Of a DNA stretch of 64,000 bases, positions 29,017 through 60,438 are shown in pieces. Where the stretch lies: contig NW_003148769.1 in assembly GCF_000003605.2 (NCBI RefSeq), positions 490,256 through 554,255 on the forward strand, written 5' to 3'. Each line of letters opens with the position of its first letter. The stretch's first letter is position 1. This DNA comes from Saccoglossus kowalevskii (lineage: Eukaryota > Hemichordata > Enteropneusta > Harrimaniidae). Below the pieces are notes generated by a model. That model saw only the letters and a list, made by a program, of their open reading frames with translations. It made no database searches and was not told the DNA's origin. The position numbers and the translations under genes are program-made.

Positions 29017-29960
29017 TTATTTTCGTAATTTTGCTATAATACATTTGGTGATGACTGCTGCCACTAATGCTGCATATCGATCCCATCTATGGTCAGTCAG
29101 GCCATCAGAATAATTACACACACCTCTCACAAACATACTCTGCTTCGCGGCAGTGTAAGTAGCTGAGGCAACACCACTGTTTTCCATTTCAAATCCAATT
29201 ACATTTTCAGATTCTGCGAGTCTATCACGAATTTCTGCATTTTCCATGGCGCAGTTCGCTGATGCCAAAATACCGAAGTGTACTTTAGGTTCTCCTGGGG
29301 AACGTAACTTCTCTAATGGATGAGTTGATTCCCCTGGTAACACATCACTATTAGGTCTTCCAAACATTTCTCGGTTCTGTTGGTTCATTTTCGAGTAGAT
29401 TTGCTTCAACGTTTCAGCTACTACTTTGCGGTTTTCTGGATCCATCTTGAACTCCCTTGCAGCATTCAACCCTTTCTGGGACAGCCGAATCGGGTTTTTT
29501 GACCTGATGTTTTCTGCAACATTTACAATGGCTTTTTGAGAAACGATTTTGCCTAAATCATACTGAATAAAAGCTGGGCCACTAGCGACTATTGGCGAGG
29601 AAACGATGACGTCACCTTTGCGTACATGAGGACGAATATACGCTGTTGTTTCACTGACTTTCATATCATCATACTTTGTATTTGGCACTCCACCAGCCAC
29701 GCCCACCATGAATACTATTTCAACGGTATTGAATGTGTCACACAGATGGGTGGTAGTTATTGCTGCACTGACTTCACCAATCTCTCCAACTGGCAATTGA
29801 ACTATTACTGTAGACTTTCCGCCTATCTCCCCCAACTTGTAATGGTTAGGGTCACTTCCGGGTTGCTGACCGTCATACTCAGTGGGTGACTCTAGTATTG
29901 ACATCACTGCCTGGTATTCCCAATCTGATGCAGTCACAATACCGATCTTCGGTGTATAAC
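29017..29960 (-). CDS. Terminal coding exon: PNP_UDP_1-like catalytic domain
   Basis: The acceptor is ATATTCCAG followed by GT; the phase-1 split codon makes Gly659, and TAA at 29019-29017 ends the frame. The 944-nt exon carries the whole nucleoside phosphorylase-like fold: an N-terminal strand KIGIVTASDWEY, the glycine turn VGVAGGVPN, GDVIVSSPIV, and the C-terminal FEMEN and RGVCNYSDG motifs. In MTA/SAH nucleosidases and PNPs the Glu after Met in MExx contacts the ribose, and the Asp of the SD motif protonates the base. Both are present, so activity is plausible. An insertion rich in Lys, Asn and Gln (about residues 800-870) separates the central strands. Substrate choice (phosphate or water; adenosine, inosine or uridine) cannot be read from the sequence. 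Confidence 0.88.
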
Positions 29961-32900
29961 CTGGAATATCACATTTTACAGTTAGAAGTACATAGCAGTA
30001 ATTATGAGATTGAAATATATTTTTGTGGACTAGAATTTCAGACATAGCGATAGCAAATAGTATTGCTTTTATAACAATGGTATAATGAGCATGCTCCACA
30101 AATCAACCATTAACAATAAATGAAAGGTAATCTGTCGTGTATAACCACACTGATAACTTACCTGCAGTGGCAAATTCGTCAGTCTTGGGAGCAAGGACAT
30201 TAACAAACTGGCTATGTGTATTCTTAATGGTTACACGATCTAAGAAATAATAAGATTATCCAAATTTGCATTACTCGTGTATGAGCGATAATAAGCTCAG
30301 ACAATTCAAACAATAAAATTATGAATTTAAAAAAGATTTAATCAATTCTATAGTATACTAACCTTTTGGGTACCAGAACTCTGGCAACTTGATTTGATGC
30401 GTTTTCCAACAACAGGGTTTATCAATAGAAACACAACCATCATCCACGTCGAGCGAATCCGGTACAGGTTTTGTTGCATCATGTTGACCACTTGTACATC
30501 TGATACATACTTTGTAGGATAACGCCGGGTATTGACTTTTGACCACTTCAGTCAGTGTATTATCTACATCTTCCCTGATCTTTGATCCTACGGATCCAAG
30601 CAGTCTGCTGGAATCTGTACATGCAAGAATAATGTCGCATTTGTTCTTCGATATTAGCACATTGGTACGACTTTCTTCAATGAAAAATGTGGCTCCATTC
30701 TGAAACAACTCTACATTCTTCCATTTCTGTATGCGTTTCACAACAAGGTTGTAGAATATTCCATCTGGCAAGAAATTGTCGCTGAAATGAAAGTGAAGTG
30801 GAACAGTGCTTGAATGGGATCTGGGAATGGGAAGTTCGCCCGTCTTCAGCATACATGGCATATAGTAGGAGGGCTTATCTGTGTCAGATATAACCGGACG
30901 CCTGCAAATAATATTGAACTTTTTATACATTTCTAGAAGAACTTCTTTATCACAGGATCGGTCTTCCTGTCGAAGAACAATATCAACCATCTCTTCTTGT
31001 AATATACCATGGTTATCAAGCTGACTGCAAAGCTTTCCTAGGCGAGGGGAATCACCAATTCTTTTCTTGTAAGAAGCCGATGTTGTTACGAGAATTCGCA
31101 ACAAGTCAGCTAACCAGGATGGATCAATTATAACCACGTTTCCTAGGATTCTGTCTTCATGAAAGTGGATAATTTCACGAATGCTGTGGTAAAATCGTAA
31201 CATCTTGTCGACAGTGTCCGAGGTGAGGCCTAAACTTTCTCCAACTTCGTACACCTTTGACAAATTTACCCATCGCTTATTCAGTTGGCGCAGCTTCAGT
31301 TCCAGCTGTATTTGGACACTTGGCTGTTTACCGAGGTAACACGATTCCTCGGCAAGTGTCCGAAGTGCTTCCCGAAGCTCCGGTACTCCAGATCCTGACG
31401 AATTGTCAACAGCATATATTCCAGCGTAGTTTTCGTGAGCACGTGGCGTAACATCTCGTACGTATTTCTCTATTCTAGACATACGATCAATAACAACCTC
31501 CTGAAAACATTACATTGAAAAAAAATATATAATAAAACACGAACTGCATAAAATGTTTTTGGAGTATGATGTATTGAAAATCATTTGCATAGAAATGATT
31601 TATTGGTTCATAGTAACATTGTTAAATGACAAATACAGGAATTGGCATTGCATAACATGCCAACAAAAGTTTTCTTTCATGAATTAATTGATGTCATGTA
31701 TAATTTTGATAATGACCTCTGGTTGGATGTTCGACATATCGCCAACATTGATTGAGTCCGGGGAATCATGGTTTTAAGAAACGTAGAAAATATTAATTAT
31801 AAAAGTGAAATAAATGAAAATAAATACACAGATTCAAAGTAAAACTCTTTTCAAACATTTATAAATGGTAGTTACTAAATAGTTCACATCTTCTTGTATT
31901 GTTATTCAATGAACTACAGAGAATCTGCGTTACATTTAAATTCACATATAATCATATTTTAAAATAAACTCATTCATGGCTTACCTGTGGAACCAAATCT
32001 GTTTTTGTGCAAACTATGACGAACTTTGTAACTGATGTGTTTATTTCACTGCTGAATATCGAACGACCATATATTGAATTAATCCAATAGTACAACACAT
32101 CTAGTAATGGATAATAATAATTACTTAGATATCAGTTTGGAAAAGTAACTTTAATTAGAAAATGGTTTCACCCTTATATCTAGGAAACCGACACAAGTAA
32201 TTACACCTTCTTGTCATGAGATGGGAAAGAAAACATTGACACGTGTATACTGGCAGTTTTCGATTTATGTAATAGCAAATGTAACCACTTACAGACCCTG
32301 GTCTAATAAAATACATACAAATTGGTAATTTAATGCAATGCATTCAATGATTTGCTAATGTGTATAAATATACACATTGGCAGGATCAGTTGTTATTGTA
32401 TAAATAAAGGTACAACAAACATTTACTGAACGCTGCTGAAACTGTTGTGTCATTTTAGGGAGGTACAGTTTTATATTAATCAAATCGTCATCTTAGGAGA
32501 CAATATGTTGAAAACAAATTGCGTCAATTATATATATTTACCTTTTTGCATCTCCAACGTCCCTGTGTCTTCACCTTCGAAATACTCAATTTTATCTTCA
32601 AGTAATTTGGAAATGTCAACTACAAGAACGTAGATACATTTCCTCGCCAGAAATATCTATGTACAGGAGAAATAGTTTTAAATTATTGATTCGGTTTTAT
32701 TATTATTGATTCTTAACACCTGCTTGAAACAAGCACGACTATGGAGCTGCACTTTTACTACACTGTGCAACAATTCATTATTTAATAAAATAATAACACG
32801 TGTTACAAAGTTACAAAATATTTATTTTAGCTAACTTTGATTAAGATTGTTCAAAAACAAAAACTAATATACACAATTATGCAAACTTACCTGGTGAGCT

Positions 32901-35900
32901 GTATAATAAATTTTCTGACCAGCAAAATCCCATAGGGAGAAGTGAAAGTCTGGTGCGTCAATATCAATTGCATCCAATAGACCACATAAACGTATCAACA
33001 TTTCCATTTCAGTTTCCCCGTCGAGTTTTAAGTAATCGTAAATACCGCCATCATCAACTTCATCCCGAGTTATACCTCCTTCCATGCTTGGATTCTGTTT
33101 CGCCTGACTTGCCACTATATTCGCGAGTAGCTTTTTTAAATCGTCCTCTGGTATATTGCTGAAGTAGGAGCCGGCTTTACCTACAAATAATAAATACAAA
33201 CAACGACAAAATATTTATCAGTTGTCTATTGTCTAATTTGCTAATTTGCTAATTAGGCATTACTGATTAAAGTACTGACTAGAATACCGCATGACTAAGT
33301 GAACAACTGATTTGATGCAGCTTAATATCTTAATGACAATATCAGGCGACTGAAAATATCTAATAGAACAAAATTATACAATACCAACAATAAGATTACA
33401 GACTATAAAATTAACCGTAATACATACATTTGGTTTACATTATTTACATAAATTAATATGTCGCCAGTTTTTCTGGCCTGTAAATACATAGTTGTGATTG
33501 GATGAGAGTTTTAATTTTTGCAAGTCAGGCTAAAGTTTCGTCAATCCCCAACATGCAATCGGGTCTATGGCGCTAATTGGTGTCTGTATATTTTACATTC
33601 AACTTTGCTACTAAAAGGTAACTACAAAACCGAAATATTGATGCAAATTCGCGTCACTGCTTGATGTATTTATTATCATTGTATGCACATTTCATTTAGC
33701 CATTGTTGCAAATAAAACGCTTCAAATGCTGATTCACATTTGAACATGTTGGTGCTTTAAAGTTTTCAGCATTTCAGAATTACCTATAAAATGAAGTGTG
33801 TATAATATACTAGGAATAAACAACACTAGAGGCATAGTATACCACCCAATGATGTAGCAAGAGATTTGAGTTATCGACTGAACTGAACGGGCTACCATCA
33901 AGGAAGTCTGGATGCAAATGCCTTAACTGTCGAGACATAAAAATATCACTAGCCTCTAATTAGCAACAAAGTCGCAGCCATCCCAAATAAACGGTTGATG
34001 TCACAAAAAAGGGAATGTGACATTGACCAATAATAAATGGTATGCCACCTTCATTCATAAAATTTGATAATGAGATATAGCAGTGAATTTAGTGTCTGTA
34101 TAAAATTTAGTCTGTATTACAAATTATGAAACAGAATATTGAAGGCTTTGCGTAGTATTTTCTCAAATACATCCTACTATTCCAGTAAATTCAAATACGC
34201 TCCAAAATATTTAAATCAGTGAAATGTTTGCAAAGTTCTGACAACATTATAATGTGGTACAGTTCTTGCTGTTTGAAGGTTTTTGGGAAAAAAATGTGCA
34301 ACTCCATCTTTAATATTCGCACTGCTGTCAGCCAGGGTGGACTCTCTGTAAAAAACCTGAATGCATATTATGTAAGATTATGATTTGTATACCTAGGAAA
34401 TATACACAAATCTAACAAATAAACTCAATTTTGATTACACGAAGTATTAATTCAGTTCACATCATTTTCAAAATGTGATTGAATACAGCTTGGTAATCTA
34501 GCAAATACATTACATGCCTCTTTTTGTCCATGTTGATATTTCAATTCTAAATATTTCAATCCCATCTGTAGTTTTATATTCACGTTGATATTGTTCACCA
34601 CCAATACTTCTAATTGTTGATGTTTTTCCAGCTCCATAAGAACCAACAAACATGAAGCACCCTCTGTACGTTTCTTTGTGCGCATCTTGTGTTAAGGCAG
34701 CCTGGAATATGCCTGGTATGAAATACATATTTGTTATTCTATAATACAGACATTAGGTTATCATTGTATTTAGATTCAAATAGTAAAAATGACATCTGGT
34801 AACGGAAACACTAAATAATGGTTACTTACCCTCTGTATCCATCAAATCGGTGCGAGAGAGAAAAAAAGAAACATAAAAATACCAGTTAGTGCTGTATTTG
34901 CAAATGTAATTTCAGTAATTGTAAAAATGACATCTGGTAATGGAAACACTAAATAATGTTTACTTACTCACTGTATCCATCAAATCGGTGTGGGAGAGAA
35001 AAAAAGAAACATAAAAATAAGAGTTAGTGCTGTATTTGCAAATGTAATTTCAGTTATTGTAAAAATGACATATGGTAATGGAAACACTAAATAATGTTTA
35101 CTTACTTTCTGTATCCATCAAATCGGTGCAAGAGAGAAAAAAAGAAATATAAAAATGCCAGTTAGTGCTGTATTTGCAAATGTAATTTCAGTTATTGTAA
35201 AAATGACATATGGTAATGGAAACACTAAATAATGTTTACTTACTTTCTGTATCCATCAAATCGGTGCAAGAGAGAAAAAAAGAAATATAAAAATACCAGT
35301 TAGTGCTGTATTTGCAAATGCAATTTCAGTAATTGTAAAAATGACTTATGGTAATGGAAACACTAAATAATGTTTACTTACCAACTGAATCCATCAAATC
35401 GGAGCGACATAGAAAAAAAGAAACATGAAAATACCAGTTAGTGCTGTATTTGTAAATGTAATTTCAGTTATTGTAAAAATGACATATGGTAATGGAAACA
35501 CTAAATAATGTTTACTTACAATCTGTATCCATCAAATCGGTGCAAGAGAGAAAAAAAGAAACATAAAAATATCAGTTAGTGCTGTATTTTCAAATACAAT
35601 TTCAGTAATTGAGTAATGAAAACAGAAATATCAGCATAACATTATGTCATCATTGTATTTAGATTAGAATTGTAAAAATAACTTATGGTAATGGAAACAC
35701 TAAATAATGTTTACTTACGTTCTGTATCCATCAAATCGGTACAAGAGAGAAAAAAAGAAACATAAAAATACCAGTTAGTGCTGTATTTGCAAATGTAATT
35801 TCAGTAATTGTAAAAATGACTTATGGTAATGAAAACACTAAATAATGTTTACTTACGTTCTGTATTCATCAAATCGGTGCAAGAGAGAAATAAAGAAACA

Positions 35901-38742
35901 TAAAAATACCAGTTAGTGCTGTATTTGCAAATGTAATTTCAGTAATTGTAAAAATGACTTATGGTAATGGAAACACTAAATAATGTTTACTTACGTTCTG
36001 TATTCATCAAATCGGTGTGGGAGAGAAAAAAAGAAACATAAAAATAACAGTTAGTGCTGTATTTGCAAATGTAATTTCAGTAATTGTAAAAATGACTTCT
36101 GGTAATGGAAACACTAAATAATGTTTACTTACCAACTGTATCCATCAAATCGGAGCGACATAGAAAAAAAGAAACATGAAAATACCAGTTAGTGCTGTAT
36201 TTGTAAATGTAATTTCAGTTATTGTAAAAATGACATATGGTAATGGAAATACTAAATAATGTTTACTTACAATCTGTATCCATCAAATCGGTGCAAGAGA
36301 GAAAAAAAGAAACATAAAATACCAGTTAGTGCTGTATTTGCAAATGTAATATCAGTAATTGTAAAAATGACATCTGGTAAGGGAAACACTAAATAAGGTT
36401 TACTTACCAACTGAATCCATCAAATCGGTGCGACATAGAAAAAAAGTAACATGAAAATACCAGTTAGTGCTGTATTTGCAAATACAATTTCAGTAATTGA
36501 GTAATGAAAACAGAAATATCCGCATAACATTATGTCATCATTGTATTTAGATTAGAATTGTAAAAATGACATCTGGTAATGGAAACACTAAATAATGGTT
36601 ACTTACGTCCTGTATCCATGAAATCGGTGCAAGAGAGAAAAAAAGAAACATAAAAATACCAGTTAGTGCTGTATTTGTAAATGTAATTTCAGTTATTGTA
36701 AAAATGACATACGGTAATGGAAACACTAAATAATGGTTACTTACGTCCTGTATCCATGAAATCGGTGCAAGAGAGAAAAAAAAGAAACATAACAATACCA
36801 GTTAGTGCTGTATTTGCAAATACAATTTCAGTAATTGAGTAATGAAAACAGAAATATCAGCATAACATTATGTCATCATTGTATTTAGATTAGAATTGTA
36901 AAAATGACTTATGGTAATGGAAACACTAAATAATGTTTACTTACCCGCTGTATCCATCAAATCGGTGCAAGAGAGAAAAAAAGAAACATAAAAATACCAG
37001 TTAGTGCTGTATTTGCAAATGTAATTTCAGTAATTGTAAAAATGAGATCTGGTAAGGGAAACACTAAATAATGTTTACTTACGTTCTGTATCCATCAAAT
37101 CGGTGCAAGAGAGAAAAAAAGAAACATGAAAATACCAGTTAGTGCTGTATTTGTAAATGTAATTTCAGTAATTGTAAAAATGATATCTGGTAATGGAATT
37201 ACTTAATACGGTCTACTTACGCTCTATTTTCGTCAAATCTGTGTGAGATAAAAAAAGGAAAAATATCGTTTCGGTCAGTCATGTTCACCAATGGCAATGT
37301 AACATTCCCCGGACCTTACTGACAGTCTGCATGTGGGGTACTCAACATAAAGCCAAGTATTTGATGATTTCAGTTACGAAATAAAGTATTACAGGCAAGA
37401 ATGGGATCACTAAGAAGAAGAGGTCATGCTGTGCCTTTGCGAAAATATGAATATTATTTACTGTCCGCAAATTTCATGGCTTGCATAGAATGTTGCATAA
37501 TCTTTCCAGAAAGCCTAACGTTGCCGGAGTCATACGGTATCTGAAATGCAGCCCAGGTGTTATTGTGTCTGAATTTCAGTCCTATGACATCCGTTTATAT
37601 ACACAGTTTTCTATTTGAATTAACCAATCCCAAGAAAGATAGAGACAATTACAAATAATCAGGTGTGGCATCCACTAATCAGGAGAGGCCCAAAATAGCG
37701 TTAAACAATAGGCTTCACAAGCAGATGTAATTGTTCTTGGCTGTAAGCTTACAAACTCAGAATATATATAAGGACCATGACGCGGTGAATGAGTGTGAAA
37801 TGTTGCTAAAATATCTTCAAATTAAACATGCACAGCAATATCTCACATACCTTGTATGTCATCCTCATTTTCCTAAAATAAAATAATATAAATAGATTAG
37901 GAGATACAACGTCGCCAAACAAAACTGAAACTTTGACTTTTTGACTTGTAGTCATTGAGGAATAATCTACACGTTTGTTGCTATAATAGTAAATAATTTT
38001 CACAAAAAATAGATGTTTAAAACAGTAAGAATTTCGTTGTGTTAGGTTGTCAGGTGACGCCATGATTGGACAAGCCCAATTTGGTGATCAGAAGAGTTCC
38101 AACTTGCTAGGAAGTTGAGTATTAATGATAATTGGTATACAATACTTTGAACCTTGACAAAATATCCAAAACTGCAATTGCCAAAAAATGTTCCAGGAAC
38201 ATGCTTGAAGCGCGGTGGTCGTCGCGCAGCGCGTGTTCGAATTTCATGTAATTAAACAATGTATTTTACACGCGTTGTATACGTCGCTATGAGTCCCATA
38301 TCGAACACTACGCGGCACGACGACTGCCGCCCTTTAACAACAACAGAGTAACAGAAATCATTGGCCAAAAGTCGATTTCTTTGTGATCTCATAGTTCAAG
38401 TAGTTTTGAATGTATGTTGGTTTATTTTAGAAAAATAAGATTATTTATGAAATCACTGGATTCACATGGTAAAAAATCAAGTAACTACCTCTATGTGACC
38501 ATGTGAATATCGGAAAACAACAATGTCGCGACATGCTAACACGGCGGTGATGAGACCGACCTTTAATTAATGGTTTTTCATGAAACATGATTCTCTCAAA
38601 TCGCCAACAAGCTTGGCAGTATTCAACAACGATAAGGCTAATAAACACTACGCTAAAGTATGCAAAAGAATCGGCATATCAGCGTTTTTAAATAACACTG
38701 CTGGTACACATTTAATACATAGAATACTTATGAACTTACCAT
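29017..38742 (-). CDS. Roc-COR GTPase fused to a C-terminal nucleoside phosphorylase-like domain (ROCO-PNP), spliced gene
   Basis: Coding exons in transcript order: 38742-38740 (ATG), 37872-37851, 37238-37221, 34712-34518, 33180-32891, 32656-32542, 32100-31985, 31500-30363, 30239-30162, 29960-29017. Summed length is 2919 nt with all phases matching, giving 972 residues. Roc domain about residues 30-290: P-loop GSYGAGKT at 38-45, WDFAGQ (G3) at 163-168, TKTD (G4) at 246-249, AVDN near 283. COR domain about 290-630. PNP_UDP_1-type domain 659-972, with GVAGG near 745-749, FEMEN near 915-919 and NYSD near 941-944. There is no room for N-terminal leucine-rich repeats and no kinase domain. Known of the families: Roc-COR modules bind and hydrolyse GTP and act as switches; PNP-family domains cleave the N-glycosidic bond of nucleosides and occur as effector or sensor domains in fungal NLRs. 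Inference: a cytosolic GTP-regulated nucleoside-cleaving enzyme, possibly in innate immunity. The 138-bp unit array lies between the third and fourth coding exons. Confidence 0.88.
30162..30239 (-). CDS. Linker exon between COR and PNP domains
   Basis: This 78-nt symmetric phase 1-1 exon is bounded by TTATTATTTCTTAG and GCAG|GTAAGT. It encodes about 26 residues starting DRVTIKNTHSQF with no recognised domain. Because it is symmetric it could be skipped without breaking the frame, which would place COR directly against PNP. Confidence 0.8.
30363..31500 (-). CDS. Large exon: end of Roc domain and full COR domain
   Basis: The acceptor is TGTTTTCAG|GAG (phase 0) and the donor AAAAG|GTTAGT (phase 1). 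The exon encodes 379 residues. The beginning, with YAVDNSSGSGVPELREAL, matches the last Roc strand and helix. The COR signature follows: LNKRWVNLSKVYE, then a helical segment, IREIIHFHED and VVIIDPSWLADLLR (compare the typical hydrophobic-x-DPxWL of COR). The second half (HFSDNFLPDGIFYNLVVKRI) matches COR-B. COR mediates dimerisation in ROCO proteins. A Cys-rich tail (CVSIDKPCCWKTH) precedes the linker exon. Antisense reading frames here are shadows. Confidence 0.88.
31985..32100 (-). CDS. Roc exon carrying the G4 motif TKTD
   Basis: The acceptor TTACTAG|AT (phase 1) and donor CCACAG|GTAAGC (phase 0) bound 116 nt. The translation contains LYYWINSIYGRS, a typical ROCO helix after G3, and FVIVCTKTDLVPQ, the guanine-specificity (N/T)KxD strand. 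It is open only in this frame and joins both neighbours in phase. Confidence 0.85.
32542..32656 (-). CDS. Roc exon after G3
   Basis: The acceptor is CTGTACATAG|ATA (phase 0) and the donor AAAAAG|GTAAAT (phase 1); length 115 nt. It encodes IFLARKCIYVLVVDISKLLE and an acidic helix. Together with the preceding TAHQ it gives the usual ROCO block (TAHQxFLxxxxxYVLVxD). Confidence 0.85.
32891..33180 (-). CDS. Roc exon carrying the G3 motif WDFAGQ
   Basis: The acceptor is TTATTTGTAG|GT (phase 1) and the donor CACCAG|GTAAGT (phase 0); length 290 nt. It ends in FSLWDFAGQKIYYTAHQ, the DxxG switch II of Roc GTPases. About 80 residues, many acidic (IPEDDLKKLL, TRDEVDDGG, LDGETEMEML), lie between the G2 region and G3. 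This is longer than in small Ras-like GTPases. Confidence 0.87.
33181..34517 (-). other. Intron between the P-loop and G3 exons
   Basis: 1337 nt, beginning with GC instead of GT and ending TTATTTGTAG. No exon-like open frame in phase is visible inside it. Confidence 0.6.
34518..34712 (-). CDS. Roc exon carrying the P-loop; probable GC-AG intron follows
   Basis: The acceptor is TTTCATACCAG|GC (phase 1). The exon encodes IFQAALTQDAHKETYRGCF, then MFVGSYGAGKTSTIRSIGG (Walker A, GxxxxGKT) and YKTTDGIEI, whose Thr is the likely G2 residue. The only phase-compatible donor before the in-frame stop is AAAGAG|GCATGT, a GC donor, which joins in phase to the G3 exon to give Gly80. No good GT donor in the right phase is visible. 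Confidence 0.8.
34824..37256 (-). repeat. Tandem array of 17 units (period 138 bp), each with an acceptor-NNN-donor splice cassette
   Basis: The variable triplets lie (plus coordinates) at 34830, 34968, 35106, 35244, 35382, 35520, 35719, 35857, 35995, 36133, 36271, 36408, 36607, 36745, 36945, 37083 and 37221. Spacing is 138 bp (one is 137), except three of 199-200 bp that keep an extra segment of about 61 bp. On the gene strand each close unit reads CACTAACTGG, a T-rich tract (TTTCTTTTTTTCTCTC), GATTTGATGGATACAG, NNN, GTAAGT. NNN in transcript order: AGC, AAC, CGG, GAC, GAC, TTG, ATT, TTG, AAC, AAC, AAC, ATT, TTG, AAA, AAA, TGA, AGG. Flanking exons meet in phase 1, so 3-nt exons keep the frame. 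Variants of the flanking sequence travel with certain triplets (TTG with the GTCGCTCC form), showing block duplication. Seen: the repeats and motifs. Inferred: use as microexons. Confidence 0.9.
37221..37238 (-). CDS. 18-nt microexon at the 5' end of the tandem array
   Basis: CTTTTTTTATCTCACACAG precedes the exon and GTAAGT follows it. The exon is symmetric (phase 1-1) and encodes LTKIE plus split codons. It is the divergent, outermost member of the 138-bp array. In the other units the matching acceptor reads CACCG instead of CACAG, so this site is lost there. A second acceptor, AATAG, 15 nt further in would leave only AGC, the counterpart of the 3-nt exons of the other units. Confidence 0.65.
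37851..37872 (-). CDS. 22-nt coding exon (ENEDDIQ)
   Basis: The exon lies between TTTTATTTTAG and GTATGT. It starts in phase 0 directly after the upstream ATG and ends in phase 1, matching the next exon. It encodes the acidic peptide ENEDDIQ. It is short, so support rests on splice sites and phase agreement on both sides. Confidence 0.65.
38212..38330. mobile_element. Small inverted-repeat (MITE-like) insertion in the intron following the start-codon exon
   Basis: A GC- and CpG-rich left arm (38212-38240) beginning GCGGTGGTCGTCG is matched by the reverse complement of 38301-38330 (GCGGCAGTCGTCG). The spacer is about 60 bp. The composition contrasts with the AT-rich surroundings. No clear target duplication was found. 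Confidence 0.5.
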
Positions 38743-45705: not shown

Positions 45706-46169
45706 ATATTTAATGCACCAAGATTTTGACCAAGATGAAATATTTTACAAGCTGTCTAAGGCTAGGATTTAAAAAAAATAGATCTCAGCAAATGATATTG
45801 TTTCTCATGTAGAATAAAATTATGTTAACTGTGTTTCTAACTCCTAATGGTCTGTATTATTTTAATGTTTTTGCCACGTTTGGTCGCATTATTCACATGT
45901 TTCTTGTTGATATGGTAAATTACATTGACGACATTCACATTTATTGTGAAAATTGGGACGATCCTATCTAGTGACTACACCAGGTTTTCCCGCATTTGAG
46001 GAAAGCAAATTTGACTGCCTGTCCAAGTAAGTTGTCACAAAAAGTAAATCAGCCGTGATGGTCGACACTTTGTGTCAAAAGACAATTTCAAGGCAAACTG
46101 CATAGACTATATTTGTTTCTAAGCGTTATGAACAACAACATCAGTTGTGCAAAGTATAAATATGTCACC

Positions 46170-47220
46170 AAGAAAGATTCACCCACAGATTTGACTTTCA
46201 TGATGTCATCACTAATTGTTGTATGGGCCATGTTTTGACTTTAAACCATTTTAAATTTGCGATTTGTATTTAACACAGATTTAAACAACAGTTTTCAATA
46301 CAAAATAACTGCCCGCCAATAAATGCTGTGTCATGGTGCGGCAAACGCAGGGTAACAATGATAATTGAGCACGTTGTTACATTAATAACGATGGGGCGAA
46401 AATAACACATTTATGCAAGACGAAATAGGCCAATCAATTTGCAGGTCACACCATAGTACACTATAGCGGTTACAGTGAAACTTTGTACATTTTTTTACTG
46501 TTTATGCAGCAACATATGCATGTGTTAATTCATCACAGCTATATTGTATTATGAAAACAAGATACTAGCCATGGTCAAGTTGAAATCAGGTTTAACTTTT
46601 CATTTCTTATCATACGATTAGATGGAATGCTGATGACGTCATTACAATTCCAGAATTTAGCAATCTGCATTAATTTGATGATTAAAATCGTCCAGTCTAG
46701 AGATTGATTTTTTAGAAGTAGTTAAGAAATCCAACGCCTTTTATATCATTTTTATGCCCAGATGGTGTTCAATGAAAATTCGGTTTTTCAAAGTGTGTTT
46801 CAAAACCATAGCTGTAAATCAATTATCTTCTATAATTCTTATTTTCTATATAAGTCAAGCTGTGGCAGTAAACCACAATATATTTTTAACTGTCCAACAT
46901 TAGACAAATGTGAGCTAATAAATGTATTACAGCGTACAAGATAATATTGCAATAACTAATTATGACACCGTCACCAAGGATACTTAGTTTTGCGTGATTA
47001 CTAGTGGGACAACATTGACGGCGAGAAATTTAATCACAAGTTAGACGTTGAAGATGTCATTACTACTTGTTGTTAATAGTTTTAACTATTAATCATGTTT
47101 CACAATCTGTATTTCACTCAGATTTGGAAAATTGCAGATAATTCTGACAGTTTTCAATACAAATAGTTGACGAATCATCAAACGGCTGTGCTATTTTGCA
47201 TTTGAAAAGGAGGGCTTATT
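46170..47220. repeat. Family C repeat modules
   Basis: Blocks such as CACCAAGGATACTTAGTTTTGCGTGATTAC and ATTTAGCAATCTGCATTAATTTG recur at 47-49, 52, 55-56 and 58 kb in diverged form. Confidence 0.55.
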
Positions 47221-48030
47221 GATTTAGTTTGGCGTACAGTATAATATAACAGTGACTAATTGAGAATCACATGGCAGGTGTTTACTTTGTCTGATATTCA
47301 TCAAGGACACACAGTTTTACGTGATTAGCAGTGGAGCAAAGTTGATGGTGTACATTTGGGTCACAGTACATTCCCTCAACCCCTATATTGTGATGCTATA
47401 GTAGTTGAGGTAAAACTCTGTAAATTTTAGAAAATGTGTGCATATGCATTACGATCACTGTAATGTGAAGGCTGAAAATACCAATAACTTTTTTTAAATA
47501 TTTGTTTAGAAGTAGTTTAAAAGCCCAACGCATTTGTTATGATTTTTTAGCCCGGATTTACTTTTGGTAACCAAGACAGAGAGAGCAACAAGAGCACATT
47601 GGTACATTATTAACGATGGTACGGACAGAGAAATTAAAACACGTCCATTGAAGGCCAAGTATGTCAGTTAATGGCACGGCGAACATCGAGTGTGTTTTAT
47701 GATTGTTATATTCTATGTGAGATATTTTGTGCCAGTCAACAAATAATACGTTGAGGGGGAGATTGGTGAGGGGGTTGCAGTAGTCTACTCTAGACAGTCG
47801 TTATCTACACAATATATGTATACACATATTTTGTTTAAATCCCCAGCATTGCATAAGAGTAAGCTTGTCGATAGTATTGCCGTGACAAATTGATAATCAC
47901 ATGATAGGTGTTTAGTATGTCACCAAGGAAACATAGTTTTACGAGATTAAAAGTGGGCAAAGTTTATAGCAGGGTGGTGTAATTTTCAGGTCACACCATT
48001 TGAAAGCCTGTTTTACAGTGCAATCCTTTG
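47220..48030. repeat. Family C segment, near-identical to 54830-55640
   Basis: GCAGTAGTCTACTCTAGACAG, AATCCCCAGCATTGCATAAG and GTCACCAAGGAAACATAG are identical in both copies. The offset is about 7.6 kb. The copies differ far less than other family C members, so this is a recent duplication. Confidence 0.85.
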
Positions 48031-48129
48031 ATCGTGTTGCAATAGTAGTTACAGTTAAATAATAACACATGCTTGTGAGGGTAATATCACGATTTGTTGC
48101 CTGCCCAAGGGATGGTGGTCATGACCATA

Positions 48130-48600
48130 ATATTGATGATGCCAGAGCCGAAGGCCTTTCACCACCTCTTCGTTATATCGCAGGTTTAAAGGAAAGTTGA
48201 GAAAATTAACTTAACAAAATTAAATTTGATGTCATGTTTTTATGTTGTGAGCCACTCCCAGCTTCCATTGTTTCCCCGCTTCGCTATCGAAAATAAACTA
48301 CATTTTCTATGAGATTCCGTTCCGACCACTATAAATATGCATATCCCGACTTGTAGCCGATCACGTGAGACGTAATGTCAGTACTAAAGGTCATCCATCC
48401 CTGGAATAATTAATAAATTACATGCCCATATAACTGGCGAGTGAATCTAACGCCACAGAATGGCGTAGGTGTTTGCTATTTTATATTTATAATAGCAGTG
48501 AATCGATGTACAATTACTGTAGCTGTGTACACTTACTGTAGATTGTTTTGTCGGTAGATCTATGTTTTTATTTAATTTTAATAATCCTAATTAAGGGGAA
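48130..48600. repeat. Family C segment, paralogous to 57090-57500
   Basis: CTACATTTTCTATGAGATTCCG, CATGCCCATATAACTGGCG, CTAACGCCACAGAATG and GTAGATCTATGTTTTTATTT are shared in order. Confidence 0.8.
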
Positions 48601-51600
48601 CTGCGAAAATGAACCCTAAATTTGATGTCAAATAATGGCGTTACGTTTTTATTTCGCGATCTAACCCCAGCTTCCCCCATCTGTTTCTGCGCTTCGCTAA
48701 CGAAAATTGACTACAACATAATATTCACGTGAGCTGAAAATCCCAATAATTTTATCAATGTTATCTATCGTGTATATTTATTACAACTCAATTGTATTAT
48801 GAACATAAGATACAAGGCATGGTCAAGTTGAAATTGGTTTTAATAATACTGTTATTACCAGACAATTAGAAGGAATACCACTGACGTCATTAAAATTCTA
48901 CCCTATAGCAATCTGCAGTAATTTAAAGATTAACGAACAGATCTGAACGCCATTCAGTGGATGTTGTGAGTTTGAGAAGTGGCTAAGGGTTTAACGAAAT
49001 ATCGAGAACTTTAACCATGGATTCGGCGTCCATGATATCATCACTATGTGCTAAGTTTAAAAAAAAATCAGTTTTATGACCGGGGCTTAAAGAAACATTG
49101 AGAACTTTAACCATGGATTTGACGTCCACGATATTACCACTATTCCTTGTATAGGTCATGTGTTAAGTTTTAACTATTTTCGCTTTGCGATCCGTTTCTC
49201 ACTCTTATTATAATATTTACAGTTTTTTTAGGTAGTTCAGTAGCCATACACATCTTATATTTTGTTTCTTTGTGGGTCCGAGGCTTGATTGCGAATATTA
49301 CCTATACCTCCAACGTCAACATACTTCATAATTAGTTGTAATCTACCGGGTCATGATTCACTACGCATTAAACAAGTGTAATTCACTCAGAGTTGTACAA
49401 GTCATGCATGCTCCGACAGTTTCTAATACACAATAGCTGATTTCCCAGCAATAAATAGATGTTCTGCGCAGGGAAATCAGGGTAGCCAAGGCAACAAAAC
49501 GTGTTGACACAAAACACAAGCGATCAAGATCATTCATGAGTGATAGGGTCAAATTATCAGTATCCACAAATTACGATACTACTCTTATTGCCCTGACTGC
49601 ACAGCATTTAATTTCATGGAGTGTCAAAACATTACAGAGTATAGAAATATCCAAACCTCGAAACTATTAGTTTGCTGAAGTGGAAAAATTATTGTGCTGG
49701 AGTTGGATATTATGACCTCATAACAATCTTTATTTGTGTCCAGAAAGCCGCAAAAACAGCGTAGGTATACTCACCATCGTCTCTTGTCGCAAAAACTTAT
49801 TTATAAAGTACAGAATCTACAGAAAGTAGGCCTGCTTATCGCTAATGAGAGGGCACCCACAGAACTCACACTGAACAGGGGGTTCTTTTACTGCTAGTAT
49901 GCGGTAGACAAGACAATAGTACTGGAATTGAAATACACATACACCAAAATATCGAGTTAAACCTTCTGGCTTTAATACCTCTCATAATAATTACAAGAAA
50001 TAAAGCACAGAATATAAAATGAATAATGTCACTAATATAAGGGATTGCTTAGGGAAGTGTGCATTGGTGATAACTCACAGTTCCAGGATGTAATAATGGA
50101 CGACAGTCAATGGCTTCTGAAACATAACAACGAAGAAATACAAGAGTCTTGCTTGCAAAGGAACGCTGGTATTCTGGAGGGCACCGCTGAAAGCAAGACA
50201 TCGCAGAGCAGTTCATACACGTCTCACAGAATTATGGTTTTAGCCTGTATCACTTGCCAAACAATATCGTAGCAGCCAACACCGGATACCAAGTTGAAAT
50301 GAAGGACTCTAACGGTCCTGAGTCTGTCCAATTTATAGGCATGATTCACCACCTGGGTTTCCACATAACCCAATCAGAATTTGATCTTGCTAGCATCTGT
50401 GTTACTCAGGCAAATGAGTAGATCATAAACATCTTTTGTTATTAAAATAACAACACACCTGGTAGATTCCAATTCTCCTTCCAAAGTTGTAAACACTCTT
50501 TGTTATGTAAATTACAAAGCACGCCTGGCAGATTCCACTGTCCTTCCAGAGTTGAAAACAAGTATGACCTATCAATCACCTTTATGGCAGTTATCACAAG
50601 GCAATTCACACCATTTCTTCCCATGAATCCATGCACACTTTCATTTGAAGGGTTTGAGGTAATATGGCAAAAAACATAAAATGAAGGGTTTTGACAGGGA
50701 CTGAGAAAATCAAATAATGGCGTTATGTTTTTATTTCGCGAACTTACCCTAGCTTCCTCCGTCTTTGTCTTCGCTTGGCTAACAAAAATTGACTACAATA
50801 AAATATGATTTGTGTTCACTGTCAGGTGCGCTGAACATCCTAGTAATTTTATCAATGTTATAAATCGTGTATTATAAACACAAGATACACTATTCGTTGT
50901 ATAGGTCATGTGTTAAGTTTTAACAATTTTCCTCTTTGCAATCCGTATTTCATAATTAGTTATAGTCTACCGGGTCATGATTTATTACGCATTATACAAG
51001 TGTAATTTAAGTGTTCCAACAGTTTCTAAAACAAAATAGCTGATTCCCCGCAATAATAGGTGTTCTGCGCAGGAAACTCAGGGTAGCCAAGGCAACAAAC
51101 GTTCTGACACAAAACACAAGGAGTCAACATCCTTTATGATTGATAGGGTCAAATTATCAGTATCCACACATTACGATACTCATCTTATTGCCCGACTCCA
51201 CAGCATGTAATTACATGGAATGTCAACATTACAGAGCACAGAAATATCCCAAACTCAAAACTATTAGTTTGCTGAAGTTGCATATTATTGTGCTGGAGTT
51301 GAATACTATGACCTCATAACAATCTTTATTTGTGACCAGAAAGCCTCAAAAATAAAGTAAGTATTCACACCATTGTCTCTTTTTACAAAGTACTGAATCT
51401 AAAGAAAATATAATACATCTATTCTAGACGGAAAGTATGCCAACTAGAGGATCATTTCAATAATATAATTCAGTGCAAGTCAGTCCCAAAATCATCAATG
51501 AACAAATCACTGAAATGGCATTTGTTACTGATTAACCTGTGGCCCACTATCTCGCGATGAACATTAACGTGTATGAATAACTTATAAGTTTCTACAGTGA

Positions 51601-52600
51601 ACCCAGGGCAGGAATTTGAAAAAAATGACAAAAAGACCGAACGCCATCTAGAACGTTTTTAAGGAACATACACCACCGCTTCGTTTTAGCACAGGTTTAG
51701 GGGAATACTGAGAAAATTGACCTTAAATTTAATGTCAAATAATGGTGTCATGCTTTTATTTTACCATCTTATCCCAGCTTCTTGCGTCCGTTTCTCTGCT
51801 TCGCTATCGTAAATTGACTACAACAAAATATGAATTGTGTTCACTATCACATGACCTGAAAATCTCGGTAATTTTATCAATATTATATATCGTGTTCATT
51901 TATCACAACTACATTGTATTATGAAAACAAGATACACGCCATGGTCAAGTTGAAATTGGTTTTAAATATCCTTTTTCTTACCAGACAATTAGAAGAAATA
52001 GCACTGACGTCATTAAAAGTCTAACCTACAGCAATCTGTAGTAACTTAAAGATTAACGAACAGACCTGAACGCCCTCTAGTGGTTGTTATTTGTGAAGTG
52101 GTTAAGTAGCCCAAATCCTTTTTTTACGTCAGGGGTTTAAAGAAATATCGTGAACATTATTCTTAAATTTGGCAACCATGGTATCATCACTATGTGTTAA
52201 GTTTTAACCTAATTTTCACTTTGCGATCTGTATTTCACTCACATTATAACATTTACTTCTATTCCCACAGTTTTCAATATACAATGACTGATGTCCAACG
52301 AAATGCCGAGTCACGGTGCTGTATACGCTGGGTGTTCAAGACAATGAAGCACGTTGCTACATTATTAATTAAAAACAATCCATTCAAGGCCAGACATTTC
52401 AGTCAGTGGCACAGCGAACTTAAAATATGTTCAATGAAAAATGCTACTTTCCAGAAGTGTTTCAGTAACATAGCAGTAAATTATTTCACTTTGATAATTG
52501 TTATATCCCATGCGAATTATTCCATGCCAGACAGCCAATATGAAACAGGACGAGCGTTTTGTTGAGGGGAGGACTAGTTGTCTGCTACATGCAATCGTAT
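48600..52600. repeat. Family C modules, three or more diverged copies
   Basis: GTCAAATAATGGCGTTA followed by CTTCGCTAACGAAAATTGACTAC occurs at about 48.63, 50.71 and 51.73 kb, and again at 58.53 kb. The TATTAGTTTGCTGAAGT block occurs at 49.67 and 51.27 kb. Reading frames (for example 52194-52565) are inside repeats. Confidence 0.65.
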
Positions 52601-52702
52601 CATACACAAATATATTTATAGATACATATTTGAAAGATGTGAGAGTAGTTTAAGTTACATTATAGAGACGACCATGAGGGCGCTGTTCATACTCGGATGA
52701 GA

Positions 52703-52851
52703 TGACGTCATACGAGGATGGATGACGTCACAATGGGTGACCGTGCATAGATGAGCATAAATAATGACGTCACAGTGGGAATTCGTGCATAAATTAGCAT
52801 AAATGAGCGACCATGGCCGTAAAAGGGTTAATTTGATTGAGGATGACGTCA
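52703..52851. promoter_or_regulatory. Cluster of four CRE palindromes (TGACGTCA), left arm
   Basis: TGACGTCA at 52703-52710, 52723-52730, 52765-52772 and 52844-52851. This is the consensus site of CREB/ATF bZIP factors. It recurs in the other arm at 54609-54616, 54678-54685 and 54720-54727. Function is inferred only. Confidence 0.5.
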
Positions 52852-53544
52852 CAATGGGGTATTGCGAATAAATTTGCATACATAAAATAGATTTGAATAC
52901 AAGGTCGTGTCGAGGTCATCGTGAAAACATTTGCATAAATTACCATCATTTTTTTTAATTATTTCTTAATTGGATTTTTTTTTTCATTTTTTAATTATTT
53001 TTAATTGGACGAGCATGGACGTCACGAAAGATTTTTCAGAATATATCGTAGAGGGCGCTCACACACATACGCTAATAAATCCACAGCATTTTGAAAACTA
53101 ACGAAGTTTATTGCACAAAAGAAGTAAACAAGAATGAAATATTGACATGGAGTATACATTCATGGCGTGGTTGAGTTTTTTTGTTTTTTTTAACGCCACG
53201 AAAAAAAAAACATACGATGTGAGTAAGGGAAATAGTTGCATAGCGCGTAAATGTATAGTGTGATTAAATATTTTTTAACACCTCGAAAAATACGTACATA
53301 AATGTGCGGCGTGGTTAAATTCATTTTTCACGCCACGAGAAATACGAGTACATAAACGATTCAATTAAAAACACGGAAGAGTGAAAAGTCAATAATAATA
53401 GTAAACAGTGATCAATAAAAATAATTCATTCTATATATACATGTTCACTTTTACATTTCTTACATCCTTTCAATGAGTCAAGCAGCGTACACTTTTTTTT
53501 CTTATTCCATCCCTCTAATCAGAATCGCTCATCTGTCATAGAAC

Positions 53545-53548
<4 letters not shown>

Positions 53549-53628
<80 letters not shown>
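53549..53628. repeat. (GA)n microsatellite inside the foldback centre
   Basis: About 40 GA units. The mirror position on the other side (53861-53872) has only a short CT run, so one side has expanded. Confidence 0.95.
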
Positions 53629-53632
<4 letters not shown>

Positions 53633-54829
53633 GATTATGTAGGTCAAAGTTATTCCGTGAAACGATCAGGTAAATATGTATTTTAACTCATAGGAGCATA
53701 GTCCGCCATTTTTTGAAAACAAAACTGTACGTCGATCAACCGATTTGGCATACTTTGCATTTTAGCAGGTTTATGACCGCAGTTTTATGGGATGACTCAT
53801 ACTTTTAAATTTCCAACACATAACCCTCTTAATATAACTATCGGTTTTTAATATTATTCTCTCTCTCTCTCTGTCTCTTTGACGTTTCTCTTTTCTGTGT
53901 TTTTAATCAAATCGTTTATGTACTCGTATTTTTTTTCGTGCCGTTAAAAATAATTTACTCAAACAAAAAAAGCAAATATGAAGTAAGAAATATAAACAAT
54001 GAACAACATATGTATATATAGAATGAATTATTTTTATTGTTCACTGTTTACTATTATTATTGACTTTTCACTCTTCCGTGTTTTTAATTGAATCGTTTAT
54101 GTACACGTATTTCTCGTGGCGTGAAAAATGAATTTAACCACGCCGCACATTTACATGTATGTACGTATTTTTCGAGGTGTTAAGAAATATTTAATCACAC
54201 TATACATTTACGCGCTATGCAACTATTTTCCTTACTCACATCGTATGTTTTTATTTTCGTGGCGTTAAAAAAAACAAAAAAACTCAACCACGCGATGAAT
54301 GTATACTCCATGTCAATATTTCATTCTTGTTTACTTCTTTTGTGCAATAAACTTCGTTAGTTTTCAAAATGCTGTGGATTTATTAGCGTATGTGTGTGAG
54401 CGCCCTCTACGATACATTCTGAAAAATCTTTCGTGACGTCCATGCTCGTCCAATTAAAAATAATTAAAAAATGAAAAAAAAAATCCAATTAAGAAATAAT
54501 AAAAAAAAAAATGATGGTAATTTATGCAAATGTATTCACGATGACCTCGACACGACCTCGTATTCAAATCTAATTTATGTATGCAAATGTATTCGCAATA
54601 CAACATTGTGACGTCATCCTCATTCAAATTAACCCTTTTACGGACATGGTCGCTCATTTATGCACGAATTCCCACTGTGACGTCATTATTTATGCTCAGC
54701 TATGCACGGTCACCCATTGTGACGTCATCCATCCCCGTATGGCGTCATCTCATCCGAGTATGAACAGCGCCCTCATGGTCGTCCCTATAATGTAACTTAA
54801 CTACTGGTGAGTTTATCGATTTTTTTTTG

Positions 54830-55640
54830 GCGTAGAGTATTATATAACAGTGACTAATTGAGAATCACATGACATGTGTTTACTTTGTCTGATATGCACT
54901 AAGGACACACAGTTTTAAGAGATTACCAGTAGCACAAAGTTTGGGGCATGACGGTGTACTTTTGTAGGTCACACCTTCTAGAAGCTTGAGTTACAGTACA
55001 TTCCCACGACCCCTCTATCGTGATGCAATAGTAGTTACAGTGAAACTCGGTAAATTTTAGAAAATTTGTGTAACAAAATATGCATTACGATCACTGTCAT
55101 GTTAGAGTTGAAAATATCAATAATTTTTTTAAATAATATTTTAATAGTAGTTAAAAAGCCCAACGCATTTTTTATCGTTTTTAGCCCGGATTTACTTTGG
55201 GTAACCAAGACGATGGGGCACATTGGTACGTTATTAACGACGGTACGGACAGACAAATTACTATGTCAGTTAATGGCACGGCGAACATAGAGTGTTTCTT
55301 ATGATTGTTATATTCTACGTGAGATATTTTGTGCCAGTCAACAAATAATACGTTGAGGGGGAGATTGGTGAGGGGGTTGCAGTAGTCTACTCTAGACAGT
55401 CGTTATCTACACAATATATGTATACACATATTTTGTTTAAATCCCCAGCATTGCATAAGAGTAAGCTTGTCGATAGTATTGCCGTGACAAATTGATAATC
55501 ACATGATAGGTGTTTAGTATGTCACCAAGGAAACATAGTTTTACGAGATTAAAGGTGGGCAATGTTTATAGCAGGGTGGTGTAATTTGCAGATCATACCA
55601 TTTGAAAGCCTGGCTTACAGTACAATCCTTTTATCAAGTT
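54830..55640. repeat. Family C segment, near-identical to 47220-48030
   Basis: Same landmarks in the same order as its partner. It begins just beyond the right TTAA of the foldback element. Confidence 0.85.
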
Positions 55641-57090
55641 GCAATAGTAGTTACAGTAATTTTTAGAATGTATGTTCAAGAAAATATACATTAAGTTCAC
55701 TGTCACGTTACAGCTGAAAATTCCAATAATTATATCAGTACTATTTATGGCGTTCATTTATCACAGCTACAATACATGGTCAAGTTGAATAAATTTTAGC
55801 TATTCTTTTTTTACAATACAATCAGACGGGATACAACTGGCATCATTACAATTCTATAATATAGCAAACTGCTGTAATTTGAAAATTAACGAAGGGACCT
55901 GAACACCCTTCAGTCAAGGGATTGATTTTTTAAAAGTTTTTGAGAAGCCCAACGCCATTTATATATTTTTGCCCAGGAAAATAAAGAAATTTATCAAATA
56001 TTCGAGGATGTCATTACTAATTGTTGTGTAGGCCAAGTTTTAACTTTTAACCATTTATCACAATCTGTATTTTACTCAGATTTGTACATTACAGCTATTC
56101 TGGAAGTATTCAATAGTTGATATTCATCAAAAGGCTGTGCCATGGTGCAGAAAACTTTGGGTAACCGAGACGACGGAACATATTGTTAGACAGACAAATT
56201 CAAACACATATGTGCAAGTAATTATGCATGATGTACACTGTCACGTGGAAGCTGAAAATCACAATAATTAGTACCAAATAATGTCAGTTAATGGCTTGGC
56301 GATTTTTAAATGTCTTCAATGAAAAATACAAAAAATATGGATTGTTTTAATTCCATAAAAATAAAATAATTATCTCTTATAGTTATTATACTCTATTTGA
56401 GGTATTCAGGGCCAGTCAACCAATATTACGCTAAGGGGGAGTTTGGTGGTGGTGATGGGGGGGGGGTCAGTAGTGACTTATAGTAACATACACAAAATAT
56501 CTCTATGCACATTAAAAAAAAAAACGTTGCTACATTATTAACTATGAGACGGACGGAAAAATTAAAACATGTCTATTCAAGGCCAGGATATCAGTCAGTG
56601 GCACAGAGAACTTAAACTATGTTGAACAAAAAATGCAACTTTCTAGGAGTGTTTCAATAACATAGCAGCAAATTATTTCATTTTGATAGTTGTTACATTC
56701 CATGCGAATTATTCCTAGCTAGCCAGTCAATAGGGAACAGAAGGAGCGTTTTTAAGAGGGAAACTAGTTGTCTGCTTCAGGCAATCGTATTATACATAAT
56801 ATATATATTTATATATATATACATATTAAAAAACTCCAGTATTGGAAATAGGTGTGTTTATCGATTTATTTTGGTCATGTGAGAGCAGAAAATACCAATA
56901 ATTTTATCAGTAATATCTATTGCGTTCCAACTGGCATTTGTTACTTATTAACTAACGGCCCTCTAGTGGTGAACATTACACATGCGCAGCATGTTTGATA
57001 TACAAGTATCTACGGTGAACACGAGGCAGGAATTTGAAAAATAACGGACAGACCGAACGCCCTCAAGTTGTCGGATTTTGAAAAGTTTTT
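55641..57090. repeat. Family C modules, diverged
   Basis: It includes ACACCCTTCAGTCAAGGGATTG and a GGGGGAGTTTGGTGGTGG block that echoes 47.75 kb. No gene seen. Confidence 0.5.
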
Positions 57091-57479
57091 AAGGGCCATA
57101 CACCTGCTCTTCGTTTCATCACAGGTTTAGGGGAAAGATGAGAAAAATAACTTAAAATTTGATGTCATGTGTTTATTTCGCTTCGCTGTCGAAAATAAAC
57201 TACATTTTCTATGAGATTCCGTTCCGCTCCCTATAAATATGCATATCCCGATTTGTATCCTTTGGAAAACATCCGATCATGTAAGACATAATGTCAGTAC
57301 CAAAGGTCACCCACTTGCATAATGCATAAATCACATGCCCATATAACTGGCGGGTGAATCTAACGCCACAGAATGCGTAGGTGTTTGCTGTTGTTATGTT
57401 TACAGTGGCAGTGAATCAGTGTACAATTACTGTAGCTGTGTTGAGATTGTTGTGTCGGTAGATCTATGTTTTTATTTAA

Positions 57480-58060
57480 TTTTAATAATCCTAATTAAGA
57501 TTTGTTTTCGATTATACTTATTAATAAACGCTTATCAAATTTTACTGATGTGTATTGTCCCATTGCTGACGCACAGTGTGGCTTCAAAAAGTATTGTACT
57601 ATATGTGTACAGGAAGGCTCCACATTGCTTTTTGTATTTAATCTGTTCAGTAATGATATAGGCAATATACTGGAAAGTGGGTTATACAAAGGAGTATATG
57701 CATATTATATATACCGATGATTTATCCATTCCTTGTAGTTTGGGTTACATAGGCAGTTGAATTAATTATGTGTTTACTGTAAAAATTGGAGGCTTAAAGT
57801 CAATGCAATCAAGTATAATATTATAGTGTTTAGAAGTGAGTTAAACTTAAATCAGATGAACATTAGTATATTGATGGGGTAAGGGTAGAAGTCGTCTCAT
57901 AATTTAATTATTTTGGTAAAACACTTTCATTATCGGGTTTATGAACAAACACTCTGCATGCTCTGGCATGTCGCGCGAGTAAAGCCGTGTAAATTTAGAA
58001 TATTAAAATTAATTTTGCTCAGAAAATTGTTGACGTCAAAATCGTATCAATAATGAATTA
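57480..58060 (+). pseudogene. Decayed LINE reverse transcriptase fragment
   Basis: Across frames: INKRLSNFTDV, IADAQCGFKK (palm motif DAQCGFR), VQEGSTLLFVFNLFSNDI (QGSxLSPxLFNLFIND), YIYR in the YADD region, LCVYCKNWRLKVNAIKYNII (CxxWxLKVNxxKTKII) and NYFGKTLSLSGL (YLGxxxSxSG). The order and spacing are those of CR1/L2/Jockey-type RT. Stops and frameshifts are present and the YADD Asp pair is not intact. Confidence 0.72.
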
Positions 58061-59510: not shown

Positions 59511-59516
59511 GCTTAA

Positions 59517-60435: not shown

Positions 60436-60438
60436 TAA

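Follow-up and report, generated by a model that had tools for sequence, protein, structure and literature searches.

What are three bases doing between a complete splice acceptor and a complete splice donor, many times in succession, when nearly everything around them is copied faithfully and they are not? This question is raised by a 64,000-nucleotide stretch of Saccoglossus kowalevskii DNA (contig NW_003148769.1, positions 490,256 to 554,255; hereafter the window, in whose own numbering all positions are given). On its minus strand, from 37223 to 34830, lie 17 serial cassettes, each with a branch-point-like site, a pyrimidine tract, YAG, three bases and GTAAGT. They form a tandem array (34779–37265, minus strand) delimited by repeat analysis, unit alignment and genome probe matches, and the array stands directly upstream of the P-loop exon in a Roc-COR gene whose exons agree in phase. 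We tentatively propose, from the sequence, that each triplet may be a translated microexon of one codon and that splicing would take the triplets largely in order, skipping some, so that a linker of variable make-up would precede the GTPase domain.

Sixteen of the cassettes are close copies of one another; the first (u00), located where the repeat starts, is divergent. The first-pass annotation of this DNA had described 17 AG-NNN-GTAAGT cassettes with constant signals, and AG and GTAAGT are indeed invariant in 17 of 17. Its 138-bp unit describes 12 of the 16 intervals; the others measure 137 bp (one), 199 bp (two) and 200 bp (one), and with four deviating intervals a uniform period was rejected. 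The three long units (u03, u05 and u11) carry an extra segment of ~61 bp, at an identical position in each. By eye, this segment is similar to the final intron ahead of the P-loop exon (34713–34829; AATCTAAATACAATGAT...), suggesting that early duplications took in that intron. Tandem Repeats Finder recovered the array as overlapping rows. CTAAC, which had been annotated for every unit, lies 53–55 nt upstream of the acceptor, with no AG between, in all 16 close copies; the acceptor annotated as TACAG has that form in 14 of them and is TTCAG in two. Introns between triplets are mostly 135 nt long, with one of 134 nt and lengths of 196–197 nt in the three long units. The cassettes thereby have the architecture of microexons, a full acceptor and donor around a triplet that preserves the frame.

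The eight triplet forms and their counts in the close copies are exactly those first annotated: AAC four times, TTG three times, GAC, ATT and AAA twice each, and CGG, TGA and AGG once each. Located by the cassette pattern on the minus strand, they run in gene order from u01 AAC (37083–37085), u02 CGG (36945–36947), u03 GAC (36745–36747, long unit of 200 bp), u04 GAC (36607–36609), u05 TTG (36408–36410, long unit of 199 bp), u06 ATT (36271–36273), u07 TTG (36133–36135) and u08 AAC (35995–35997) through u09 AAC (35857–35859), u10 AAC (35719–35721), u11 ATT (35520–35522, long unit of 199 bp), u12 TTG (35382–35384), u13 AAA (35244–35246), u14 AAA (35106–35108) and u15 TGA (34968–34970), which is no stop in phase 1, to u16 AGG (34830–34832). 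The first copy departs from this plan, and the claim of a 3-nt candidate exon in each unit is good for the 16 close copies and ambiguous for u00. There the sequence (37221–37238, minus strand) reads CACACAG-ATTTGACGAAAATAG-AGC-GTAAGT, with two AGs 15 nt apart that would define an exon of either 18 nt (37238–37221) or 3 nt (AGC, 37221–37223). Its branch-point-like site is CTGAC, compared with CTAAC in the close copies. Where u00 has its first AG, the close copies lack one and read CACCG (13 copies), CTCCG (two) or TACCG (one); its second AG belongs to AATAG, at which site they have TACAG or TTCAG. Provided that u00 represents the older state, the close copies would share a change that reduced an exon of 18 nt to one of 3 nt.

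The hypervariability of the triplet is our strongest result, and every explanation of the array must account for it. Across the aligned close copies (16 units, 137 gap-free columns), 96 columns show no variation, and all four bases occur in just two, both inside the triplet. The triplet columns, at 1.59, 1.48 and 1.88 bits, hold ranks 1–3 of the 137 for entropy, the next highest being 0.95, and permutation of columns yields an equally variable three-column window with P = 0.00027. Two units differ on average at 69% of triplet positions and at 6.8% of the others. On a tree built from non-triplet columns, the triplet sites take 5, 6 and 8 parsimony steps (sum 19) and the 134 other sites together take 58 (mean 0.43, maximum 3); this is robust to removal of u01 (5, 5 and 7 steps) and to collapsing same-triplet neighbours into 12 units (4, 6 and 6 steps). 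The product of per-site P values under an overdispersed negative-binomial fit is ~5e-10, before any correction for the choice of window. On any tree, with up to two intermediate triplets allowed free, at least nine changes are needed versus 1.3 expected. Plain chance was rejected as the source of the variability on the entropy permutation, the parsimony counts and the negative-binomial fit.

The reading frame that the triplets would have to respect is set by the gene on their 3' side, all of it on the minus strand. The P-loop exon (34518–34712) matches the Roc domain at E = 0.00048, under the Pfam cut-off, and starts in phase 1 (x|GC), which requires the exon before it to break after the first base of a codon. 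Its donor is inferred to be GC (GAG-GCATGT), as needed to join position 33180 in phase 1. Roc exon 2 (32891–33180), which ends in phase 0, gives a further Roc match under the cut-off (E = 0.0072); Roc exon 3 (32542–32656; IFLARKCIYVLVVDI...) and Roc exon 4 (31985–32100; ...VIVCTKTDLVPQ) were read by eye. They are followed by a COR exon (30363–31500; COR-A at E = 1.9e-10, above the Pfam cut-off, and COR-B at E = 0.00019, under it) and a short exon recognised from splice signals and phase (30162–30239; DRVTIKN...EFATA). These six exons, from 34712–34518 to 30239–30162, join in matching phase into a stop-free Roc-COR protein with the P-loop GSYGAGKTS; GAGKTS, DFAGQ and TKTD were recognised by eye. 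A Roc GTPase domain followed by COR makes the gene a member of the Roco family. Beyond lies an open frame with a PNP_UDP_1 (Pfs) domain (29017–30102, acceptor approximate; E = 5.7e-12, above the Pfam cut-off), and the Roc-COR-Pfs layout is reminiscent of immune switches.

Read in genomic order and in the phase of the P-loop exon, the 16 triplets give the peptide QPGRLDFEQQHFEKMK followed by G, stop-free, just as had been claimed for inclusion of all 16. Scored against the codons of the gene and its paralog, the triplets have a codon log-ratio of 7.7 in phase 1; the two alternative phases give 0.2 and -5.5. This codon-likeness has P = 6e-5 versus intron composition, 0.042 versus column-permuted triplets and 0.038 versus order-shuffled triplets. 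Together with a variability far higher than that of the surroundings, this suggests that the triplets are read as protein. The first-pass idea of a diversity generator at codon scale gains from both the hypervariability and the coding-like phase; we infer the inclusion in mRNA that it also calls for.

On the interpretation we favour, a single microexon cassette before the P-loop exon of the Roc-COR-Pfs gene would have been tandemly duplicated about 16 times. Any copy number preserves the frame, because the exon is exactly one codon and sits in phase 1. Each inter-triplet intron would be self-sufficient, with its GTAAGT, CTAAC, pyrimidine tract and TACAG or TTCAG. Simultaneous binding of splice sites only 3 nt from each other is not expected; since the donor and acceptor flanking a triplet are that close, splicing would proceed stepwise, nearest donor to nearest acceptor. 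Most or all triplets would then be joined in genomic order, with some skipped, and the full serial join would read ...GAGC AAC CGG GAC GAC TTG ATT TTG AAC AAC AAC ATT TTG AAA AAA TGA AGG GCATATTCC. The predicted product is a linker of at most about 16 residues, immediately N-terminal to the GTPase domain and variable in both sequence and length. Homogenisation would act on the introns, and selection on the encoded residues would preserve the diversity of the triplets against it.

Skipping has consequences that can be counted. Among the ordered subsets of the 16 triplets, 25,152 of 65,536 hold a stop, and the remainder encode 9,027 distinct stop-free peptides. By this arithmetic a productive/unproductive splicing switch, as the first-pass annotation had entertained, would be conceivable. 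At the other extreme, the array might be a codon-scale combinatorial device in which 16–17 one-codon exons, skipped stochastically, supply up to 9,027 linkers before an immune-type Roc-COR-Pfs switch; we regard that full version as unlikely.

Several observations weigh against translated microexons. The effect of shuffling the triplet order is mostly stop avoidance, as 82% of random orders hold a stop and 17.6% are stop-free. Amphipathicity of the chain peptide is not above that of shuffled orders (P = 0.84 and 0.65), and identical triplets are neighbours in 4 of 15 pairs versus 1.5 expected (P = 0.046). A 3-nt exon is difficult for any spliceosome. Only 5 of the 17 triplets end in G, versus six of six other donors of the gene that follow G (P = 0.0046; the six were counted by eye, with the conjectural 22-nt exon described below excluded); the triplets thus show no tuning as donors or as ordinary exon ends, and GTAAGT can compensate for a missing exon-end G. 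Neither of the two paralogs of the gene has a YAG-NNN-GTRAGT cassette on the gene strand in the 19 kb around it. No protein model of the gene was found in two protein searches (at most 8,000 candidates scored in each, ~370–1,178 and 743–2,364 residues long), which returned nine and five distant Roco or Pfs matches and no Saccoglossus entry; the five from the second search, presumably to the Pfs part, include a fungal protein named for Pfs, NACHT and ankyrin.

The upstream side of the gene belongs with these adverse points. The placement of the array inside a GTPase gene holds for the P-loop and downstream exons; upstream, the 22-nt exon (37851–37872, minus strand; ENEDDIQ-G) has a good acceptor and donor and a fitting phase, has no homology and is conjectural. 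On the minus strand, a Pfam scan of ten frames in the 38.4–50.8 kb interval yielded three weak matches, all under the cut-off (E = 0.045–0.076), and established no upstream coding exon. Nor was one established by a codon-usage scan of 37.8–64 kb for exons of at least 40 nt, whose top scores were 13.9, 11.1, 11.1, 11.0 and 10.0. In a control, the scan regained five of five known exons fully or partly (the weakest at 12.2 and 13.6), these exons having trained the table; when each was left out in turn, two fell to -0.3 and 3.5 on codons, so the scan has low power for short exons. Short coding exons may yet lie upstream, and the array may sit either in a coding intron or close to where the gene starts. 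Its top candidate (50792–50748, total score 13.9) scores like the weakest real exons and is part of a repeated 45-nt segment.

That exon-like segment (SIFVSEAEKQTEEAG-like) occurs in four minus-strand copies, at 48710, 50792, 51817 and 58613, each preceded by TTGTAG; GTAAGT follows the copy at 50792 only. The copies could be a second duplicated-exon array of the same gene.

The history of the copies and their distribution in the genome bear on what the array can be. Same-triplet units share private variants near the triplet (u03 and u04; u08 and u09; u13 and u14; and the TTG units u05, u07 and u12), from which it follows that duplication of some units carried the triplet along. Otherwise, the flanks are only weakly linked to triplet identity: in 15-nt windows, P is 0.04–0.18 upstream, and downstream it is 0.05 in the first 15 nt and 0.75–0.90 beyond. 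Over whole units, same-triplet pairs differ at 8.4 positions and different-triplet pairs at 9.2 (P = 0.21). With linkage this weak and same-type pairs not significantly closer, exchange between units has probably shuffled introns and triplets.

When a 301-bp array probe was compared with the 572-Mb genome, at least 12 matches were reported, all inside the array; with no reported match elsewhere, an introner or other mobile intron was rejected as its identity, and as far as could be seen the array is confined to this one gene; arrays with another sequence may exist elsewhere. A search with the P-loop exon found the two paralogs, 44% and 37% identical. The closer paralog lies on contig C3952, where a single plain intron of ~430 nt separates the P-loop exon from a preceding exon that by eye is like an ankyrin repeat; the COR part of this paralog is 33% identical. 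A tandem cluster of noncoding RNAs such as snoRNAs was also rejected: an Rfam scan of 34000–38500 gave no matches up to E = 1, and the consensus unit is not stably folded (-15.4 versus a shuffle mean of -17.4).

What else could place such variation between intact splice signals? The whole 2.4–3.1 kb may be removed as an intronic satellite or an array of decoy or recursive sites, its motifs persisting through youth or as decoys that slow splicing. We consider this possible, if somewhat unlikely. Local duplication is abundant in the window, the copies are only ~7% diverged, the gene's other donors have a context different from that of the triplets, and the C3952 paralog makes do with its single plain intron at the same position; an intron of this kind would, however, leave unexplained the tenfold variation at exactly three bases amid signals intact in 17 of 17 cassettes and a stretch free of AG in all 16 close copies. 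Selection for diversity would account for that variation if the choice were exclusive, one triplet or none per transcript, altering two residues (GNN-NGC) before the Roc domain. Read in this way, the eight close-copy forms encode eight distinct residue pairs (ES, ER, EG, DC, AG, GR, VS and VG) without stops, and their composition is codon-like (P = 0.003 versus neutral composition). Nothing in the anatomy enforces exclusivity, however: the unit itself is unstructured, no docking or selector pairing was found (binding between the consensus unit and the flanking introns was matched by 70 and 25 of 100 shuffles), and five of the eight forms recur, with three groups of identical neighbours that would add no isoform. 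One-at-a-time choice therefore appears quite unlikely to us.

Two further explanations fare worse. Were the triplet the noncoding junction of unit recombination or of imprecise copying, near-identical units could carry wholly different triplets, as do u02 (CGG) and u06 (ATT), which differ at 3 of 134 other sites, and triplet identity would be weakly tied to flanking sequence, as it is. End-joining filler would nevertheless differ in length, and the triplet is exactly 3 nt in 17 of 17 cassettes; the private variants common to same-triplet groups indicate that triplets were copied along with the unit, and we are aware of no process that would target mutation to three bases flanked by splice sites. 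Such a hotspot is improbable. Repeated insertion of one intron into a coding stretch, cutting it into single codons in the manner of introners, would account for unrelated triplets between near-identical introns and for their stop-free order. To our knowledge, intron insertion at every third base has no precedent; the shared private variants near the triplets argue that whole units were duplicated, the genome search reported no intron match outside the array, and the C3952 paralog, by eye, is without matching extra residues. We give this origin scarcely any credence. Codon-scale coding best explains hypervariability of exactly three bases between AG and GTAAGT, and the reading of the triplets as translated microexons is the most economical one, although unproven.

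If the triplets reach mRNA, the locus would be an exon array at the smallest size that keeps the frame, a test of the spliceosome on serial exons too short for both splice sites to be bound, and an added diversity mechanism in a gene with an immune-switch-like Roc-COR-Pfs layout. If they never do, a new mutational explanation is needed for why change is ten times more frequent between AG and GTAAGT than elsewhere in the unit.

Duplication is not confined to the array. Positions 46000–61000 hold a cluster of local duplications, mostly in the same orientation and ~68–89% identical, with the four copies of the 45-nt segment among them. Positions 1–27000 hold another large cluster, its copies diverged and for the most part likewise in one orientation. 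On the plus strand, a CAG-TGRACGAT-GTAAGT stretch occurs in two copies, at 5097 and 17038. An inverted repeat of ~830 bp (52644–53466 versus 54805–53980) is 94% identical and is perhaps a recent element. Elsewhere in the assembly, the mitochondrial contig C4830 carries COX1 on the strand opposite to frames that resemble ND1 and COX2 by eye. Translated with TGA as tryptophan, the COX1 of this genome shows 100% identity over the query to that of S. kowalevskii, with the second-best match at 85%, in keeping with the origin of the window from an acorn worm, a hemichordate.

Among known systems, recursive splice sites, or zero-length exons, place an acceptor directly before a strong donor and allow very long introns to be removed stepwise. 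The array likewise sets an acceptor near a strong donor, with stepwise intron removal expected, but three bases separate AG from GT in 17 of 17 cassettes, whereas a recursive site has no exon bases; three bases would be left at each step, and the introns of ~135 nt are not very long. No near-identical cassette array with one-codon exons was found among the titles and abstract openings of the open-licence papers searched.

Exons of 3 nt are themselves established in Drosophila homothorax (hth), troponin T and mammalian NCAM, with hth micro-exon 8 spliced from within a longer exon. Like a triplet of the array, each such exon adds or changes one residue; unlike it, they are described as one per gene (the hth exon being conserved in many insects) and not as an array of variable ones. 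In the micro-exon genes (MEGs) of Schistosoma, longer introns separate numerous tiny exons, most of which keep the frame, and variable peptides result; the exons are mostly 15 bp, with a minimum stated as 6 bp or 3 bp within the same source. The chain of short, mostly frame-keeping exons and the variable peptides would be common ground with the array, whereas a MEG encodes a secreted protein and the present units are near-identical 138-bp repeats in a Roc-COR GTPase gene. With Dscam-type clusters of mutually exclusive exons, the array shares tandemly duplicated cassettes at one intron position, a variable would-be exon and a frame that is kept; a Dscam exon is part of an immunoglobulin domain, whereas here it would be one codon, and the selector and docking pairing that some such clusters use was not found here. 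Although membership of that class is unproven, the array would, by analogy, work like a Dscam cluster shrunk to one codon.

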